Source: Pelagibacterales bacterium SAG-MED48 (GTDB taxonomy: Bacteria > Pseudomonadota > Alphaproteobacteria > Pelagibacterales > Pelagibacteraceae). From it: a DNA stretch of 48,917 nucleotides. Within the stretch, counting starts at the first letter, position 1; each line of letters begins with the position of its first letter. The stretch lies in contig JACWEP010000008.1 in NCBI GenBank assembly GCA_014653375.1, positions 1 to 48,917 on the forward strand, given 5' to 3'. The notes below the pieces were generated by a model that made no database searches, had not been told where the DNA came from, and saw only the letters and a program-made list of their open reading frames with translations. Position numbers and translations under genes: made by a program. This document shows positions 2,652 through 12,597 of this stretch, piece by piece.

Positions 2652-3542
2652 TTAAGATTTAATCCAATCTGGTTTTTTAATATTAATTGAAGCATTCTTA
2701 GTATTAAAATTAGATTTTCCATTAAAATTTTCATCTAAATATTTGATTAAGGCAAACGGATAATCCTTTTCTATTAGAACTTTACCAATTTCATTTTCAT
2801 TAAAATAAATACTTTCACCCTCAATTAATTCACCTTTAATTATATTTATTGGAAATAATCTTTTCGAAAGCTTATTTTTAAGTTTAATTCTAGCAGTATT
2901 TTCTTGCCCAACATAACAACCCTTTTTAAAGTCAATTCCATTTAATTCTTCATAATTGCACTCAATACCAAACAGTTTATTTTGTAATTTATTAAAATCC
3001 TTTGGAACTATTCCAAGTTTATGACTAAATGAGTAATAATCTTTAATATTAGAGTCGTGTAGCTCAAGTTTCTTTAATGATAAATAAAGTTTTTCTAAAT
3101 TTATAATAAGCCTTGCTCCTAATTGTTTATTTCGTGGATCTAAAAGAATTGGATCTTCTCTATATTTTAAAGTAAAGCCAGCAATATCTTGAGCTTCATC
3201 AAAATTTAGAAATTTTTCATAACTAAAAGCAGCAACTACAAATTCATTGCTAAGATTTAAAATTTCAACTTTTGATCTTAACTTATAAATACTTAGTTGT
3301 TTAAATAGTCCATCTACTTGAGATTTTTCGCAATCAATCAAATAACCAGATTTATGTTTAATTATTACAAACTCATATAAAAACTTGCCTTGAGGTGATA
3401 ATAAGGATGTAAAGCAGCTATTATTATTACTGACTTTATTAATATCGTTGCTAATCAGATTTTGTAGAAATTCTTTTGTATCTTCACCGTTTAAGTAAAG
3501 TATCGCTCTATCATCTAAAATATATACATTTTTGATATTCAT
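2652..3542 (-). CDS. ygfZ: YgfZ/CAF17 folate-binding protein (Fe-S cluster maintenance)
   Basis: This 296-residue aminomethyltransferase-fold protein carries the diagnostic K-G-C-Y-x-G-Q-E motif at residues 207-214. YgfZ proteins bind tetrahydrofolate and support assembly or repair of [4Fe-4S] enzymes such as MiaB. The N-terminal half (LNGEDTKEFLQNLISNDI) matches the family's GcvT-like start. It stands alone on the minus strand, divergent from the dihydroorotase-like gene with a 43-base gap that must hold both promoters. The folate link fits the true gcvT elsewhere in the window, to which it is distantly related. Confidence 0.88.
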   Translation of the reverse strand: MNIKNVYILDDRAILYLNGEDTKEFLQNLISNDINKVSNNNSCFTSLLSPQGKFLYEFVIIKHKSGYLIDCEKSQVDGLFKQLSIYKLRSKVEILNLSNEFVVAAFSYEKFLNFDEAQDIAGFTLKYREDPILLDPRNKQLGARLIINLEKLYLSLKKLELHDSNIKDYYSFSHKLGIVPKDFNKLQNKLFGIECNYEELNGIDFKKGCYVGQENTARIKLKNKLSKRLFPINIIKGELIEGESIYFNENEIGKVLIEKDYPFALIKYLDENFNGKSNFNTKNASINIKKPDWIKS

Positions 3543-4890: not shown

Positions 4891-6777
4891 TATATTACTT
4901 TTAATTAAATCTTCTTTAATCTCAGATAATATAGCTGGATCGTCAATAGTTGGAGGTATTTTATATTCTACATTATCAGCAATTTTTCTAATAGTACCTC
5001 TTAATATTTTTCCTGATCTTGTTTTTGGTAATCTTTTAATGACAATTACTACTTTAAATGCAGCAACAGGTCCGATTTTATCTCTAACCATCTTCACACA
5101 TTCTTTTGAAATAGTATCATTATCTTTATCTACACCAGTTTTAAGAACCACTAAGCCAATAGGTAGTTGTCCTTTTAGTTTATCAGCAATACCAAGCACT
5201 GCACATTCAGCAACAGATTGATGCTCTGATAAAACTTCTTCGATGGCACCTGTTGATAATCTATGACCTGCAACATTAATTATATCATCTGTTCTTGACA
5301 TAATCCAAATATAACCATCATCATCAATATGACCTGCATCATATGTTTGATAATAACCTTCGTAATTAGTCATATAATTTTCTTTATATCTTTGATCTGC
5401 ATTCCATAATGTCGGAAAAGTTCCAGGAGGCAATGGAAGTTTGACTACAATATCTCCCATTTCATTTGGCTCTGCTAAAGTTTGATCTGGTTTAATAATT
5501 TTAACATCATAACCAGGTACAGCTTTACATGCTGAGCCATATTTAGTTTCCATCATTTCAATACCAGTACAATTAGAACTAATTGCCCAACTAGTCTCAG
5601 TTTGCCACCAGTGATCGATCACTGGTACTTTAAGTAAATTTTCTGCCCATTTTATAGTATCTGGATCTGCTCTTTCTCCTGCAAGAAATAAACTTTCAAA
5701 ACTACTAAGATCATATTTTGAAAAAAACTTACCTTCTGGATCTTCTTTTTTAATAGCTCTAAATGCGGTAGGGGCAGTAAATAAAGATTTTACTTTATAA
5801 TCTGAGATGATTTTCCAGAAAGCACCAGCATCTGGTGTTCCAACAGGTTTTCCTTCAAACAAGACAGTTGTGCATCCTTTAAATAATGGAGCATAGACAA
5901 TATACGAGTGCCCAACGATCCATCCAATATCGCTTGCTGACCACCAAATATCATCAGCATTAATATTGTAGATATTTTTCATCGTCCATTTTAGAGCCAC
6001 TATATGTCCACCAATATCTCTAACTATTCCTTTAGGAGTTCCTGTTGTGCCAGATGTATAAAGAATGTAAGCAAATTCATTTGAATTCATTTCTACACAA
6101 TCAGTTTCTTTTGCAATTGATACAACCTCATCCCAACTCACTTCCATTGGTTCATTTAATTTTACTTCATGACCTGGTCTTTGAAATAAAATCATTTTAT
6201 CAATTTTATGATTAGCAAGTTTTATTGCTTCATCAACTAATGGTTTATACTCAACAGTTCTTCCTGGTTCAAAACCACAAGAAGCAGTAACCAATAATTT
6301 TGCTTTACTGTCATCTATTCTGCTAGCAAGTTCGTTTGATGCAAAACCCCCAAAGACAACTGAGTGAATTGCTCCAATTCTTGCACAAGCAAGCATTGCA
6401 ATAACTGCCTCGGGTATCATTGGCATGTAAATAATTACTCTATCACCTTTGACAGCACCTTGATTTTTAAGTGCTCCTGCAAATTTTGAAACTTTCGATC
6501 TAAGTTCTTCGTATGTGAACTGACTTTTGTTTCCAGTAATAGGGCTATCGTATATTAATGCTGTTTTTTTTCCTCTACCTTGATCAATATGAATGTCTAA
6601 AGCATTATAACAAGTGTTTGTTATCCCATCTTCAAACCATTTATAAAAAGGCGGATTAGATTTGTTTAAAATCTTAGTCGGTTTTTTAAACCAAAAGATA
6701 TCATTTGATGCTTCTTGCCAAAATTTTTCAGGATTTTGTAAAGATTGATCATAAATATCACTAAATTTTTTAGACAT
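4879..6777 (-). CDS. prpE: Propionyl-CoA synthetase (acetyl-CoA synthetase family)
   Basis: This AMP-forming acyl-CoA synthetase activates propionate (and possibly acetate) to its CoA thioester. From the ATG at 6777 it has 632 residues, close to PrpE; the frame extends to 6873, but the extra 32 residues precede the conserved beginning and are not supported. Seen: YTSGTTGTPKG phosphate loop (240-250), VFGGFAS, HWWQTETSWAI, and the A10 motif PKTRSGK with the catalytic and acetylatable lysine near residue 590. PrpE-like features such as SDIGWIVGHSYIVYAPL and the TIDDP tail favour propionyl over acetyl. It is divergent from proteorhodopsin across a 213-base region. Confidence 0.85.
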   Translation of the reverse strand: MSKKFSDIYDQSLQNPEKFWQEASNDIFWFKKPTKILNKSNPPFYKWFEDGITNTCYNALDIHIDQGRGKKTALIYDSPITGNKSQFTYEELRSKVSKFAGALKNQGAVKGDRVIIYMPMIPEAVIAMLACARIGAIHSVVFGGFASNELASRIDDSKAKLLVTASCGFEPGRTVEYKPLVDEAIKLANHKIDKMILFQRPGHEVKLNEPMEVSWDEVVSIAKETDCVEMNSNEFAYILYTSGTTGTPKGIVRDIGGHIVALKWTMKNIYNINADDIWWSASDIGWIVGHSYIVYAPLFKGCTTVLFEGKPVGTPDAGAFWKIISDYKVKSLFTAPTAFRAIKKEDPEGKFFSKYDLSSFESLFLAGERADPDTIKWAENLLKVPVIDHWWQTETSWAISSNCTGIEMMETKYGSACKAVPGYDVKIIKPDQTLAEPNEMGDIVVKLPLPPGTFPTLWNADQRYKENYMTNYEGYYQTYDAGHIDDDGYIWIMSRTDDIINVAGHRLSTGAIEEVLSEHQSVAECAVLGIADKLKGQLPIGLVVLKTGVDKDNDTISKECVKMVRDKIGPVAAFKVVIVIKRLPKTRSGKILRGTIRKIADNVEYKIPPTIDDPAILSEIKEDLIKSNILKD

Positions 6778-6921
6778 AGATTTCGATTCGATTTTACTAA
6801 AATTGTTGGTTTTTAAATTAAAAATTGCATTTAATTTTAAAATATAAGTAAAATCAATGTTAATTAATGACAATTAAGTCTTCATTAATCTAATTTTATT
6901 TGATAATTAACGCTCTATCTT

Positions 6922-6957
6922 GGTTTAAGGTAACTTAAACCTAGTTTATATAAACTA
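6922..6957 (+). promoter_or_regulatory. Two abutting palindromes over the likely proteorhodopsin promoter
   Basis: GGTTTAAG and CTTAAACC (6922-6929 / 6934-6941) form an 8-bp inverted repeat with a 4-base spacer. It is followed without a gap by the perfect 16-bp palindrome TAGTTTATATAAACTA (6942-6957). The pentamer GTTTA therefore recurs four times in alternating orientation. A plausible -10 element (TATATA, 6947-6952) lies inside the second palindrome, with a weak TTTAAG at 6924 as -35. Either an operator or a 5'-leader structure is possible. The leader ends in a purine-rich RBS (AAAGAGGGAG, about 6974-6983). Confidence 0.5.
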
Positions 6958-6990
6958 AAAATAAAAACTAACTAAAGAGGGAGTTTTTTT

Positions 6991-7758
6991 ATGAAAAAAC
7001 TTAAATTGTTTGCTCTTACAGCTGTTGCACTATTGGGTGTTACGGGTGTTGCAAACGCAGATGTTATGTTAGCTCAAGATGATTTCGTTGGAATTTCATT
7101 TTGGATTATCTCTATGGGTATGTTAGCAGCTACTGCTTTCTTCTTCATGGAAACAGGCAACGTAGCAGCGGGCTGGAGAACTTCAGTTATCGTTGCAGGT
7201 CTAGTAACTGGTATCGCATTCATACACTACATGTACATGAGAGAAGTATGGGTAAGTACTGGAGACTCGCCAACAGTATACAGATATATTGACTGGTTAA
7301 TTACTGTGCCACTACAAATGGTTGAATTCTATTTAATTCTATCTGCTGTAGGTAAAGCAAATTCAGGAATGTTCTGGAGATTGTTACTTGGATCAGTTGT
7401 TATGCTAGTAGGTGGATATTTAGGAGAAGCTGGATACATCAACGCTACACTTGGTTTTATAATCGGTATGGCAGGTTGGGTATACATTCTTTATGAAATA
7501 TTCTCTGGTGAAGCAGGTAAAGCTGCAGCAAAAAGTGGAAACAAGGCTCTTGTAACTGCTTTTGGTGCAATGAGAATGATCGTTACAGTAGGTTGGGCAA
7601 TTTACCCATTAGGTTATGTATTTGGTTACCTAACAGGTGGTGTAGATGCAGAATCACTTAACGTTGTTTACAACTTAGCTGACTTTGTTAACAAAATTGC
7701 ATTTGGTCTAGTAATTTGGGCTGCTGCAACTAGTTCAAGCGGAAAAAGAGCTAAGTAG
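6991..7758 (+). CDS. Proteorhodopsin, blue-absorbing type, light-driven proton pump
   Basis: This 255-residue, seven-helix retinal protein starts with a cleavable signal peptide (VANA, about residues 20-23). Functional residues are all visible: H79 (partner of the Schiff-base counterion), D101 proton acceptor in RYIDWLITVP, E112 proton donor in MVEFYLI and K235 retinal lysine in DFVNKIAF. The tuning position in PLQMVEFY is Gln109, equivalent to Q105 of blue proteorhodopsins; green forms have Leu or Met. It pumps protons outward across the inner membrane under light. It is closed by a strong terminator, so it is likely transcribed as a single gene. No retinal synthesis genes (blh, crt) are in this window. 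Confidence 0.97.
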   Translation: MKKLKLFALTAVALLGVTGVANADVMLAQDDFVGISFWIISMGMLAATAFFFMETGNVAAGWRTSVIVAGLVTGIAFIHYMYMREVWVSTGDSPTVYRYIDWLITVPLQMVEFYLILSAVGKANSGMFWRLLLGSVVMLVGGYLGEAGYINATLGFIIGMAGWVYILYEIFSGEAGKAAAKSGNKALVTAFGAMRMIVTVGWAIYPLGYVFGYLTGGVDAESLNVVYNLADFVNKIAFGLVIWAAATSSSGKRAK

Positions 7759-7783
7759 TTTTACTAAGTAAAATATTTAAATT

Positions 7784-7821
7784 AGGGCGAGTATGTTCAT
7801 ACATACTTGCCCTTTTTTTTT
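7784..7821 (+). terminator. Rho-independent terminator after proteorhodopsin
   Basis: AGGGCGAGTATGT (7784-7796) pairs with ACATACTTGCCCT (7801-7813) with a single G-T wobble around a TCAT loop. A run of T follows to 7821. It lies 25 bases after the stop and 20 bases before the ferredoxin start. This separates the two transcription levels. Confidence 0.92.
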
Positions 7822-7840
7822 AAGAGCTTATATCTAATTA

Positions 7841-8161
7841 ATGGCAAAAATAAATTACATTACTCACGACAATCAAACCCATACAATTGATGTTCAAAAT
7901 GGACTTACAGTTATGGAGGGCGCAGTTCAAAATGATATTCCAGGTATTGATGCGGATTGTGGTGGTGGTATGGCATGTGCGACTTGTCATGTTTATGTAA
8001 ATGAGGAATGGTTAGATAAACTTCCAACTAAAGAAGATGGTGAAGAAGATATGCTTGATATGGCGTTTGAACCAAAACAAAATAGTAGATTGAGTTGTCA
8101 ATTAACTATTTCAGATGAATTAGATGGACTAGTAGTTAACATTCCTTCAAAACAAGTTTAA
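7841..8161 (+). CDS. [2Fe-2S] ferredoxin, adrenodoxin type
   Basis: This 106-residue ferredoxin has the C-x5-C-x2-C ... C ligand set (C40, C46, C49, C86) in [17 protein letters not shown] and LSCQLTIS. That is the vertebrate/ISC-type arrangement used by electron carriers for hydroxylases and Fe-S assembly. It directly precedes a ferredoxin reductase (stop and start adjacent) and a GST-family gene. The three form a redox cassette that follows proteorhodopsin in SAR11 genomes (from memory). The terminator upstream means it needs readthrough or its own promoter; none is obvious in the 20-base gap. Confidence 0.9.
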
Positions 8162-11751: not shown

Positions 11752-12597
11752 ATGAATAAATTAATTAAATCGATTTCAGTTTTTCTTGTAATTCTTTTTA
11801 GTATTTCCTCAGTTAATGCAGCAACATTAACTGATAGATTAAAAGATGGACACAAGCTAAGACTAGGTTTTGGAACTGCAGTGCCATGGGCTTATGCTGG
11901 TGATAATGGTGAAGCATTAGGCTTTGTTAACATGATTGCTTTAACAGTTCTTGAAGAAATGGGAATTACTGAGCATGAAACTAAAGTATTTGAATGGTCA
12001 GGATTAATTCCAGGAATTAATGCTAATAGATCAGATATGATCACTGGGGGTATGTATATTTTAAAAAGTAGATGTGCCAATATCAATTTCTCAGACCCAA
12101 TTGGTCTTTTTGGTGATGCAATGTTAGTGCCTAAGGGAAATCCAAAAGGTATCAATAATTATGAGGATGTTATTCGAACTGGTGCAAAACTTGTAACAGG
12201 TGCTGGTTTCAACACAGTTGAAGCTGCTAAGAAATATGGTGTTCCTGATAGTCAAATGATGTTAGTTGAAGGTGAAGTTGGAATTCTAGCTGCTATGAAA
12301 GCTGGAAGAGCTGATGTTGCTGTTCAAACTTTCTTTGGTGCAAAAGAACATGAAGAAAAAACAGGTGGTGCATTTGAAGTAACTGATCCTAAATTAATGC
12401 CTAAAGAAACTCTAAACGTTGTTGGTATTGGTTTTAGAAAAACTGACACAGAGTTTAGAGATAACTTTAATGCTGCATTAGCAAAAGTTTTAGCAAACCC
12501 AGGAAAAATGTTGGAAAGAGCTGGTAAGTATGGCTATGATAAAGCTCAATTACCTCCTGCTGACATGACTACAGAGTGGGCTTGTTCAACTAAATAA
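11752..12597 (+). CDS. ehuB: ABC transporter periplasmic solute-binding protein (EhuB-like)
   Basis: This 281-residue family-3 binding protein has a signal peptide ending near residue 23 (SSVNA). The ligand-binding fold includes WAYAGDNGEALGFVNMIA, ITGGMYILKSRCANINFSDPI and GRADVAVQTFFGAKE. It heads an ehuB-ehuC-ehuD-ehuA order, the arrangement of the ectoine/hydroxyectoine importer. Family-3 binding proteins also bind polar amino acids, so the ligand is inferred from gene order and sequence style. A good RBS, GAGGAGAG, precedes the ATG. A strong hairpin follows the gene, which would keep binding protein in excess of the membrane subunits. Confidence 0.75.
   Translation: MNKLIKSISVFLVILFSISSVNAATLTDRLKDGHKLRLGFGTAVPWAYAGDNGEALGFVNMIALTVLEEMGITEHETKVFEWSGLIPGINANRSDMITGGMYILKSRCANINFSDPIGLFGDAMLVPKGNPKGINNYEDVIRTGAKLVTGAGFNTVEAAKKYGVPDSQMMLVEGEVGILAAMKAGRADVAVQTFFGAKEHEEKTGGAFEVTDPKLMPKETLNVVGIGFRKTDTEFRDNFNAALAKVLANPGKMLERAGKYGYDKAQLPPADMTTEWACSTK

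Follow-up and report, generated by a model that had tools for sequence, protein, structure and literature searches.

The window analysed here is a stretch of 48,917 nt that forms contig 66 of a 1.07-Mb genome in 67 contigs, whose named relatives belong to the Pelagibacteraceae (SAR11). It carries a proteorhodopsin gene preceded by an intergenic region of 213 nt with 19.7% GC. By Pfam matches, an acetyl-CoA synthetase gene lies upstream of proteorhodopsin in divergent orientation, and the 3' side holds a terminator-like hairpin followed by genes for a 2Fe-2S ferredoxin and a pyridine-nucleotide oxidoreductase. Since the strong terminator-like hairpin at 7784-7813 intervenes, the ferredoxin and reductase genes may be expressed mostly apart from the proteorhodopsin mRNA. 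Ten proteins encoded between 2652 and 12594, including proteorhodopsin, were scanned. Nine matched Pfam families, none of them a regulator, and the protein at 2652-3539 is without a Pfam match. The longest perfect palindrome of the window, ACCAGTGATCGATCACTGGT (20 bp, 5607-5626), is located within the acetyl-CoA synthetase gene. The features around the proteorhodopsin start are listed below.

6881-6886, + strand: -35-like hexamer TTCATT, separated from the -10 element by a 17-nt spacer
6901-6909, + strand: extended -10 element TG-A-TAATTA (TG at 6901-6902; hexamer TAATTA at 6904-6909)
6917, + strand: probable transcription start, an A 74 nt before the ATG, equivalent to position 529616 of HTCC7211, as mapped in that relative
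6922-6941, + strand: hairpin 1, 8-bp stem with the GNRA-type loop GTAA, 5 nt from the probable RNA 5' end
6942-6957, + strand: hairpin 2, the perfect 16-bp palindrome TAGTTTATATAAACTA, abutting hairpin 1 with no gap
6963-6988, + strand: hairpin 3, predicted weak pairing of AAAAACU (6963-6969) with AGUUUUU (6982-6988), enclosing the ribosome-binding site
6977-6983, + strand: Shine-Dalgarno sequence GAGGGAG, strongly conserved in alignments A1-A4; four of its seven nucleotides are predicted to be paired
6991-7758, + strand: proteorhodopsin gene (PF01036, E 2.3e-56)
7784-7813, + strand: intrinsic-terminator-like hairpin with a T run, between the proteorhodopsin and ferredoxin genes

Promoter and 5' end of the transcript

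A first-pass annotation of the region had described an 8-bp inverted repeat with a 4-nt spacer, adjoined by a perfect 16-bp palindrome. Direct reading bears out this geometry. The arms of the inverted repeat are GGTTTAAG (6922-6929) and CTTAAACC (6934-6941), with the loop GTAA at 6930-6933, and GTTTA/TAAAC appears four times in alternating orientation, as that annotation had stated. It had also placed the likely -10 element inside the palindromes (6922-6957). This is not the case, as the conserved -10 hexamer is at 6904-6909 and the mapped start is upstream of both palindromes. The extended -10 pattern TTTG-N-TA(N)4 is present in all 115 distinct upstream sequences of the genus g1; in a single case the spacing to the palindrome is odd, at 13 nt. 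CTTC is found in 113 of the 115, and in 111 it lies exactly 24 nt 5' of the -10 hexamer.

Transcript 5' ends have been mapped in the Red Sea on strain HTCC7211 (Hou 2016, PMC5069720). In the available part of that paper, Table 2 gives bacteriorhodopsin PB7211_669 at 529616-530457 with 507 TSS reads, the 10th among the mapped TSSs, which places SAR11 proteorhodopsin among the most strongly started transcripts at sea. The HTCC7211 coordinates were placed on a relative genome that shares them (G385, 1,456,888 bp). As a check of this placement, all ten Table 2 genes in the stretches examined (18 tried) have a stop codon where the printed coordinates end. Position 529616 of G385 is an A, 74 nt 5' of the ATG and 5 nt 5' of hairpin 1. 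It is not a start codon, because the 842 nt from it to the end of the gene are not divisible by three. For gidA, ahcY, PB7211_401 and PB7211_767, the 'Start' given in Table 2 is the start codon; therefore, 'Start' was taken as a TSS only where it is off the codon. We infer that the proteorhodopsin entry is a TSS in this sense. For glcB, the available text of PMC5069720 gives a start 162 nt 5' of the codon, and the table coordinates agree. A check of the transcript 5' end, which the first-pass annotation had proposed, is thus provided by the published HTCC7211 mapping as far as it is available, and it puts the start 5 nt before hairpin 1. Together with the conserved promoter upstream, a start at about this distance shows, or at least strongly supports, that hairpin 1 and the palindrome are inside the transcript.

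Conservation and pairing of the leader

Perfect palindromes of at least 16 bp are common in the AT-rich DNA considered here. The window contains seven, where a simple expectation gives 2.5 per window, and 400 kb of G385 contain 41. The rarity of the palindrome was therefore rejected as evidence. A combined filter asked for a perfect inverted repeat (7 bp or longer, loop of 3-8 nt) lying 0-2 nt from a perfect palindrome (14 bp or longer). Two sites in 448.9 kb passed, the proteorhodopsin leader of the window among them; the homologous site of G385 fails because of a wobble pair. The first-pass annotation had raised the concern that similar palindromes are common at random AT-rich sites. The concern holds for the palindrome alone. 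By folding energy, the G385 leader is 12th among 375 upstream regions and so not extreme. Rarity is a weak argument, and the strong evidence is conservation.

Proteorhodopsin upstream regions were collected from 220 loci in three genera of the family (g1, g5 and g6). These loci are part of the search matches, comprising the best ones and a hand-picked spread, and some genomes are present twice. Two loci were too short, and the other 218 yielded 184 distinct 100-nt leaders, none of which was dropped. The first-pass annotation had named loss of the palindromes in close relatives as the outcome that would tell against it. In this alignment of SAR11 upstream regions they are kept, which favours the finding. 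A self-complementary centre of 2, 4 or 6 bp lies between the GTTTA/TAAAC arms in all 184 leaders (TA in 98, AATT in 33, TATA in 28, ATAT in 14, TTAA in 10 and ATATAT in 1). Of the 184 leaders, 154 have Watson-Crick pairs at all seven arm positions, and 16 have G-U pairs in the arms. Breaks affect at least one arm pair in 21 leaders and fall almost always on the outermost two positions; 8 leaders lack both outer pairs. The five inner pairs are intact in 183 leaders. L235 has A and T in place of the arm G and C, and L242 has one mismatch. Thus, the arms are nearly invariant and several palindromic centres occur across the three genera, while the flanks drift.

Folding predicts a hairpin directly beside the palindrome in 183 of the 184 distinct leaders; about 72 are expected from shuffled sequences, which is not few. 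The counts by genus are 112/112 in g1, 54/55 in g5 and 17/17 in g6, against 40.5, 22.9 and 9.1 in shuffles. The mean MFE is -9.0 in g1, -9.0 in g5 and -9.7 in g6, compared with -2.5, -4.9 and -6.5 for the shuffles. In g6 (L150, L151 and L206-L224), GAGGGAGA occurs invariantly near the tip of hairpin 1, in 17 of 17 distinct leaders. It resembles a further Shine-Dalgarno sequence and lies 5' of the genuine one.

Covariation was analysed in alignment A1, which holds 74 of 90 distinct g1 leaders (the other 16 form A2), and in A3, which holds 49 of the 55 g5 leaders, with 6 left out. Double changes occur in six of the eight pairs of hairpin 1 in A1 and in four of the five pairs at its foot in the g5 alignment. 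The three-helix structure has 36 double-change cells in A1, against 3.5 +/- 5.2 after shuffling, and 98.6% paired cells, against 96.7% after shuffling. Sliding the partners in A1 lowers all covariation measures. Helices 2 and 3 are nearly invariant in this alignment, and its covariation thus speaks to hairpin 1. Five of six palindrome pairs never vary there, which is neutral as to RNA pairing. Hairpin 1 keeps its pairing while its sequence drifts, and this shows, or strongly supports, that it is an RNA stem. Its loop is GNRA in 44 of the 66 four-nucleotide loops among the 74 leaders. RNAalifold recovered hairpin 1 in part in g5 and did not recover it in g6, where the alignment is gapped; single sequences fold in this way. 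At the outer pair of hairpin 3, g1 has A-U, whereas g5 and g6 have G-C. In L237, each arm of hairpin 3 is shorter by one pair.

In the predicted ensemble of the window leader, separate hairpins dominate, with pair probabilities of 1.0 for hairpin 1 and 0.71-0.95 for the palindrome. The palindrome hairpin alone is predicted to be weak (-1.6 kcal/mol at 37 °C and -3.5 at 20 °C). The first-pass annotation had suggested mutually exclusive structures in which the middle arms pair with each other (TAAAC-N3-GTTTA). In addition to the dominance of separate hairpins, this pairing is kept in only 1 of 184 distinct leaders, so the suggestion is not upheld. The firm part of the interpretation is that the leader is transcribed and folded, and the folding is very likely. 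A known RNA family was considered and rejected, since a search of 6700-7900 against Rfam gave 10 matches up to E 5, none above the gathering score.

The element was found only at proteorhodopsin in the genomes searched. The 16-mer palindrome has one exact match in its own genome; allowing two mismatches gives 4 sites, whereas the reversed pattern gives 11. Of 25 genomes, 22 have the pattern TAGTTTA-N2-6-TAAACTA at proteorhodopsin, and the other three have altered outer bases. Elsewhere in the 25 genomes it occurs at 4 sites, all with an asymmetric centre, and the reversed control occurs at 22. A covariance model (R1) run on 20 genomes matched proteorhodopsin in 12 (g1, g5 and g6), whereas the eight genomes of g2, g3, g4 and the sister family gave no match there. 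Its other seven matches had E values of 0.03-1, and six of these viewed by eye were four terminator-like hairpins and two seemingly coding stretches. The search for further copies of the double palindrome, which the first-pass annotation had proposed, hence returned no second promoter with the element in these genomes.

Wider relatives (g2, g4 and the sister family) have different perfect palindromes, 16-20 bp long, ahead of proteorhodopsin and near the Shine-Dalgarno sequence. These are TTTTGTTTAAACAAAA and longer forms, TAATTTTATAAAATTA and TAATTTTTAAAAATTA. A palindrome of 16-20 bp was found in 19 of 20 wider-relative leaders, in which clade members are not independent; the exception is the single g3 genome. 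In the 400-kb comparison, 7 of 375 upstream regions, proteorhodopsin included, had such a palindrome. In L157 and L158 (g2) and in L156, L159 and L161 (g4), an inverted repeat and a T run precede TTTTGTTTAAACAAAA on the 5' side of the proteorhodopsin Shine-Dalgarno sequence, possibly an attenuator-like arrangement.

Meyer et al. 2009 reported, likewise for SAR11, upstream RNA structures identified by covariation (the rpsB, rpsL and ffh motifs and SAM-V). According to the available text, HTCC1062 was screened and intergenic regions below 26% GC were dropped; the proteorhodopsin intergenic region of the window, at 19.7%, is below this cut-off. The main text of Meyer 2009, as available, does not contain 'proteorhodopsin' or 'rhodopsin', and 'rhodopsin' is likewise absent from the available main text of Stav 2019, which deals with the SAR11 strain HIMB5. 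Stav 2019 mentions five protein-binding candidates in HIMB5, with which the leader may overlap. In the literature searched, which includes Stav 2019 by its main text, no report of the proteorhodopsin leader or of such SAR11 palindromes was found.

Proposed protective leader and alternative functions

We propose that the two palindromes fold as hairpins 1 and 2 in a 74-nt structured 5' leader that protects the mRNA, with a probability of about 0.52. The first-pass annotation had offered a structured leader as one of its guesses, and this guess gains support from the position inside the mapped transcript and from the covariation of hairpin 1. Hairpin 1 would act as a 5'-terminal stem-loop that denies a single-stranded end to 5'-end-dependent RNases. 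Hairpin 2 would extend the block begun by hairpin 1, and hairpin 3 would be opened by the ribosome. In this manner, a constitutively transcribed gene could give rise to a long-lived and abundant proteorhodopsin mRNA. The argument for a protective stem-loop is that hairpin 1 preserves its pairing but not its sequence, that it lies at the mapped 5' end and that the gene is reported to be constitutive, abundant and insensitive to light. Steindler 2011, in the part available, describes proteorhodopsin expression as constitutive, abundant and unchanged by light. The leader, conserved in at least three genera and located at the mapped 5' end, may bear on this constitutive expression.

Stabilising stem-loops are known in the 5'-UTRs of other bacterial mRNAs. 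The ompA hairpin is at the very 5' end. The proteorhodopsin leader resembles the ompA type, including recA and vacA, in having a stem-loop a few nucleotides from the 5' end (5 nt for the HTCC7211 start in the available mapping), and hairpin 1 conserves pairing rather than sequence, as expected of such an element. As with ompA, the mRNA is abundant and encodes an envelope protein, and a strong Shine-Dalgarno sequence follows the stem-loop. In contrast to the ompA type, the 74-nt leader is made up of three hairpins in tandem, of which the second is a perfect palindrome with a self-complementary centre, and stabilisation is putative. According to the available part of PMC7509114, 5'-UTR stem-loops stabilise recA and vacA mRNA, and hairpins protect puf. 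Some features fit the protective leader less well, among them the weakness of the palindrome hairpin on its own, the lost or broken arm pairs in some leaders and the incomplete recovery of hairpin 1 by RNAalifold in g5 and g6. The constant self-complementary centre of the palindrome is left unexplained by a hairpin function, because a hairpin needs no self-complementary loop. In addition, if hairpin 3 forms as predicted, pairing of four of the seven Shine-Dalgarno bases is a poor fit to a fully open site.

The constant centre would be explained by RNA homodimerisation or by a DNA dyad, since only intermolecular pairing or a dyad needs it. In homodimerisation, two leaders would pair over 16-18 bp via the palindrome, with hairpin 1 stacked on each side. 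The dimer would protect or mark the mRNA in dependence on its concentration, and the palindromes of other abundant SAR11 mRNAs would act alike. A homodimerising RNA is expected to conserve a self-complementary segment as such, and this is seen in 184/184 leaders with six centre types, whereas none of the 4 sites with the same arms elsewhere in the 25 genomes has a self-complementary centre. At 20 °C, the leader dimer is predicted at -69.3 kcal/mol, compared with -55.0 for two monomers, and the predicted Kd of the isolated palindromes is approximately 2e-11 to 6e-10 M. The 12-14-nt palindromes of other genes are also predicted to favour the duplex over the hairpin. However, these energies ignore kinetics, ribosomes and proteins, and any palindrome would score likewise. 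The available part of PMC7357161 describes dimerisation through palindromes in guanidine-II riboswitches, the hatchet ribozyme and retroviral RNA. The leader is similar to the guanidine-II riboswitch, the hatchet ribozyme and the retroviral DIS in having a self-complementary segment able to join two RNAs. The palindromes of those homodimers, as far as described there, are 2-6 nt long, whereas here a whole hairpin of 16-18 nt is self-complementary and the dimer is a prediction. We consider homodimerisation of this leader rather unlikely, at perhaps one chance in five.

A DNA operator, in which a dimeric regulator binds the palindrome just 3' of the start and represses or tunes the gene, appears less probable again. 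Like known dyad operators, the site is a perfect palindrome near the transcription start, with dyad symmetry that includes the centre. A repressor would fit a site in the initially transcribed region, and symmetric double changes could arise if the regulator co-evolved. Unlike in dyad operators, the spacing of the half-sites varies among 2, 4 and 6 bp, which a rigid dimer would not tolerate, and the element is wholly inside the transcript. No second site was found, as the 4 other pattern sites in 25 genomes are all asymmetric, although a regulator of one gene would still be compatible with this. In 16 of the 184 leaders, the palindrome contains a G-T opposition; RNA can accommodate this as a wobble pair, whereas in DNA it breaks the symmetry. 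Variable spacing, location wholly inside the transcript and G-U pairs are the reasons why RNA is favoured over a DNA dyad. The nine Pfam-matched proteins scanned around the element include no regulator, and expression is described as constitutive and independent of light in the available literature. The first-pass annotation had suggested a double operator bound by a regulator of the light, redox or nutrient type. It is not our leading idea, because of the lack of a second site in the genomes searched, the variable spacing and the position inside the transcript.

A translational switch responding to temperature, a ligand or a protein is improbable. Here, hairpin 3 would partly close the ribosome-binding site, and the AAACUA/UAGUUU copies in the palindrome and the arms of hairpin 3 would swap partners, so that the site opens or closes. 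A possible alternative partner for the palindrome's 5' arm is the AAACUAA before the Shine-Dalgarno sequence, both copies are conserved, and in L235 the palindrome arms and the downstream copy are changed together. In L122, however, the downstream copy is lost and the palindrome is intact. An RNA thermometer would hold the ribosome-binding site in a stem that opens on warming. Pairing of four of the seven Shine-Dalgarno bases is predicted from 10 to 37 °C, but it changes little over this range. No Rfam family reached the gathering score, and the sequence of hairpin 1 is unconserved, unlike that of a binding pocket, except for the invariant GAGGGAGA of g6.

A functionless chance palindrome, kept by descent or perfected by templated (quasipalindrome) mutation, is very improbable: AT-rich palindromes of 16 bp are indeed common (41 in 400 kb), but the nearly invariant arms with several palindromic centres in three genera with drifting flanks, the covariation of hairpin 1 with its non-palindromic loops, and the other palindromes in 19/20 wider-relative leaders against 7/375 regions, even though these leaders are not independent, all argue against it.

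Palindromes in leaders of other active SAR11 genes

Palindromes are also present in the mapped leaders of several other highly active SAR11 genes. The pattern was first noticed in two leaders and then tested on 27 of the 36 genes in Table 2 of PMC5069720, the available source of the starts. Fourteen of the 27 have a leader of 12-100 nt, with the start codon of livK set by eye. A perfect palindrome of at least 10 bp is present in 9 of the 14 (potD, tauA, opuAC, PB7211_641, dctP, livK, PB7211_1419, yhdW and proteorhodopsin) and absent from the mapped leaders of the other five (amt, hupA, PB7211_1146, groS and acpP). The combined probability against dinucleotide shuffles is 2e-7, or 2e-6 without proteorhodopsin, both being post hoc values. 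The palindrome begins at +1 in potD, PB7211_641 and dctP and at +2 in tauA and opuAC. The yhdW leader has the proteorhodopsin design, with an 8-bp hairpin and a 4-nt loop followed directly by an 18-bp palindrome. The sites in G385 are as follows.

G385, L313, L314, L316, L321, L327/L333, L297:18651-18681 and L312:2141-2174: palindromes of 10-18 bp at potD, tauA, opuAC, PB7211_641, yhdW, dctP and livK

Orthologs were searched for in 31 genomes each, which gave 23 for potD, 19 for opuAC and 27 for yhdW. A palindrome of at least 10 bp precedes 23/23, 15/19 and 26/27 of them, against 3.0, 1.2 and 3.3 expected, the orthologs not being independent. The potD orthologs (L383-L405) have two leader types, either AACGTTAACGTT or CGTTTAAACG running into GGAGG. 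L391 has CGATTAATCG, a symmetric variant of CGTTTAAACG; in L395 the usual palindrome is broken and another one was counted.

Genome-wide enrichment is modest and confined to long palindromes. In 400 kb of G385, palindromes of at least 14 bp lie upstream in 8 of 173 cases, against 2.7 +/- 1.5 expected, and those of at least 12 bp in 15 of 173, against 8.8 +/- 2.8. At a threshold of at least 10 bp there is no enrichment (28/173 against 23.8 +/- 4.6). Three of 11 genes resembling those for solute-binding proteins, among them the window gene at 11752-12597, have no perfect palindrome of at least 8 bp in the 75 nt upstream.

The 12-14-nt palindromes of the other genes are predicted to fold weakly as hairpins (0 to -2.0 kcal/mol at 20 °C) and to form good duplexes. 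A SAR11 cell is so small that one molecule corresponds to approximately 10-100 nM. Abundant envelope-protein mRNAs of SAR11, for proteorhodopsin and solute-binding proteins, might dimerise in identical pairs via perfect 5'-leader palindromes, often at the first nucleotides, a generalisation that we regard as doubtful. If true, mRNA dimerisation would offer concentration-dependent protection or regulation of abundant messages with few regulators. More broadly, palindromes in several of the most active SAR11 leaders, with symmetric double changes, would suggest a post-transcriptional device common to these genes in a bacterium poor in regulators. A further palindrome of 22 bp, at L296:15206-15227, contains GTTTCACGTGAAAC, which we take to resemble a parS site.
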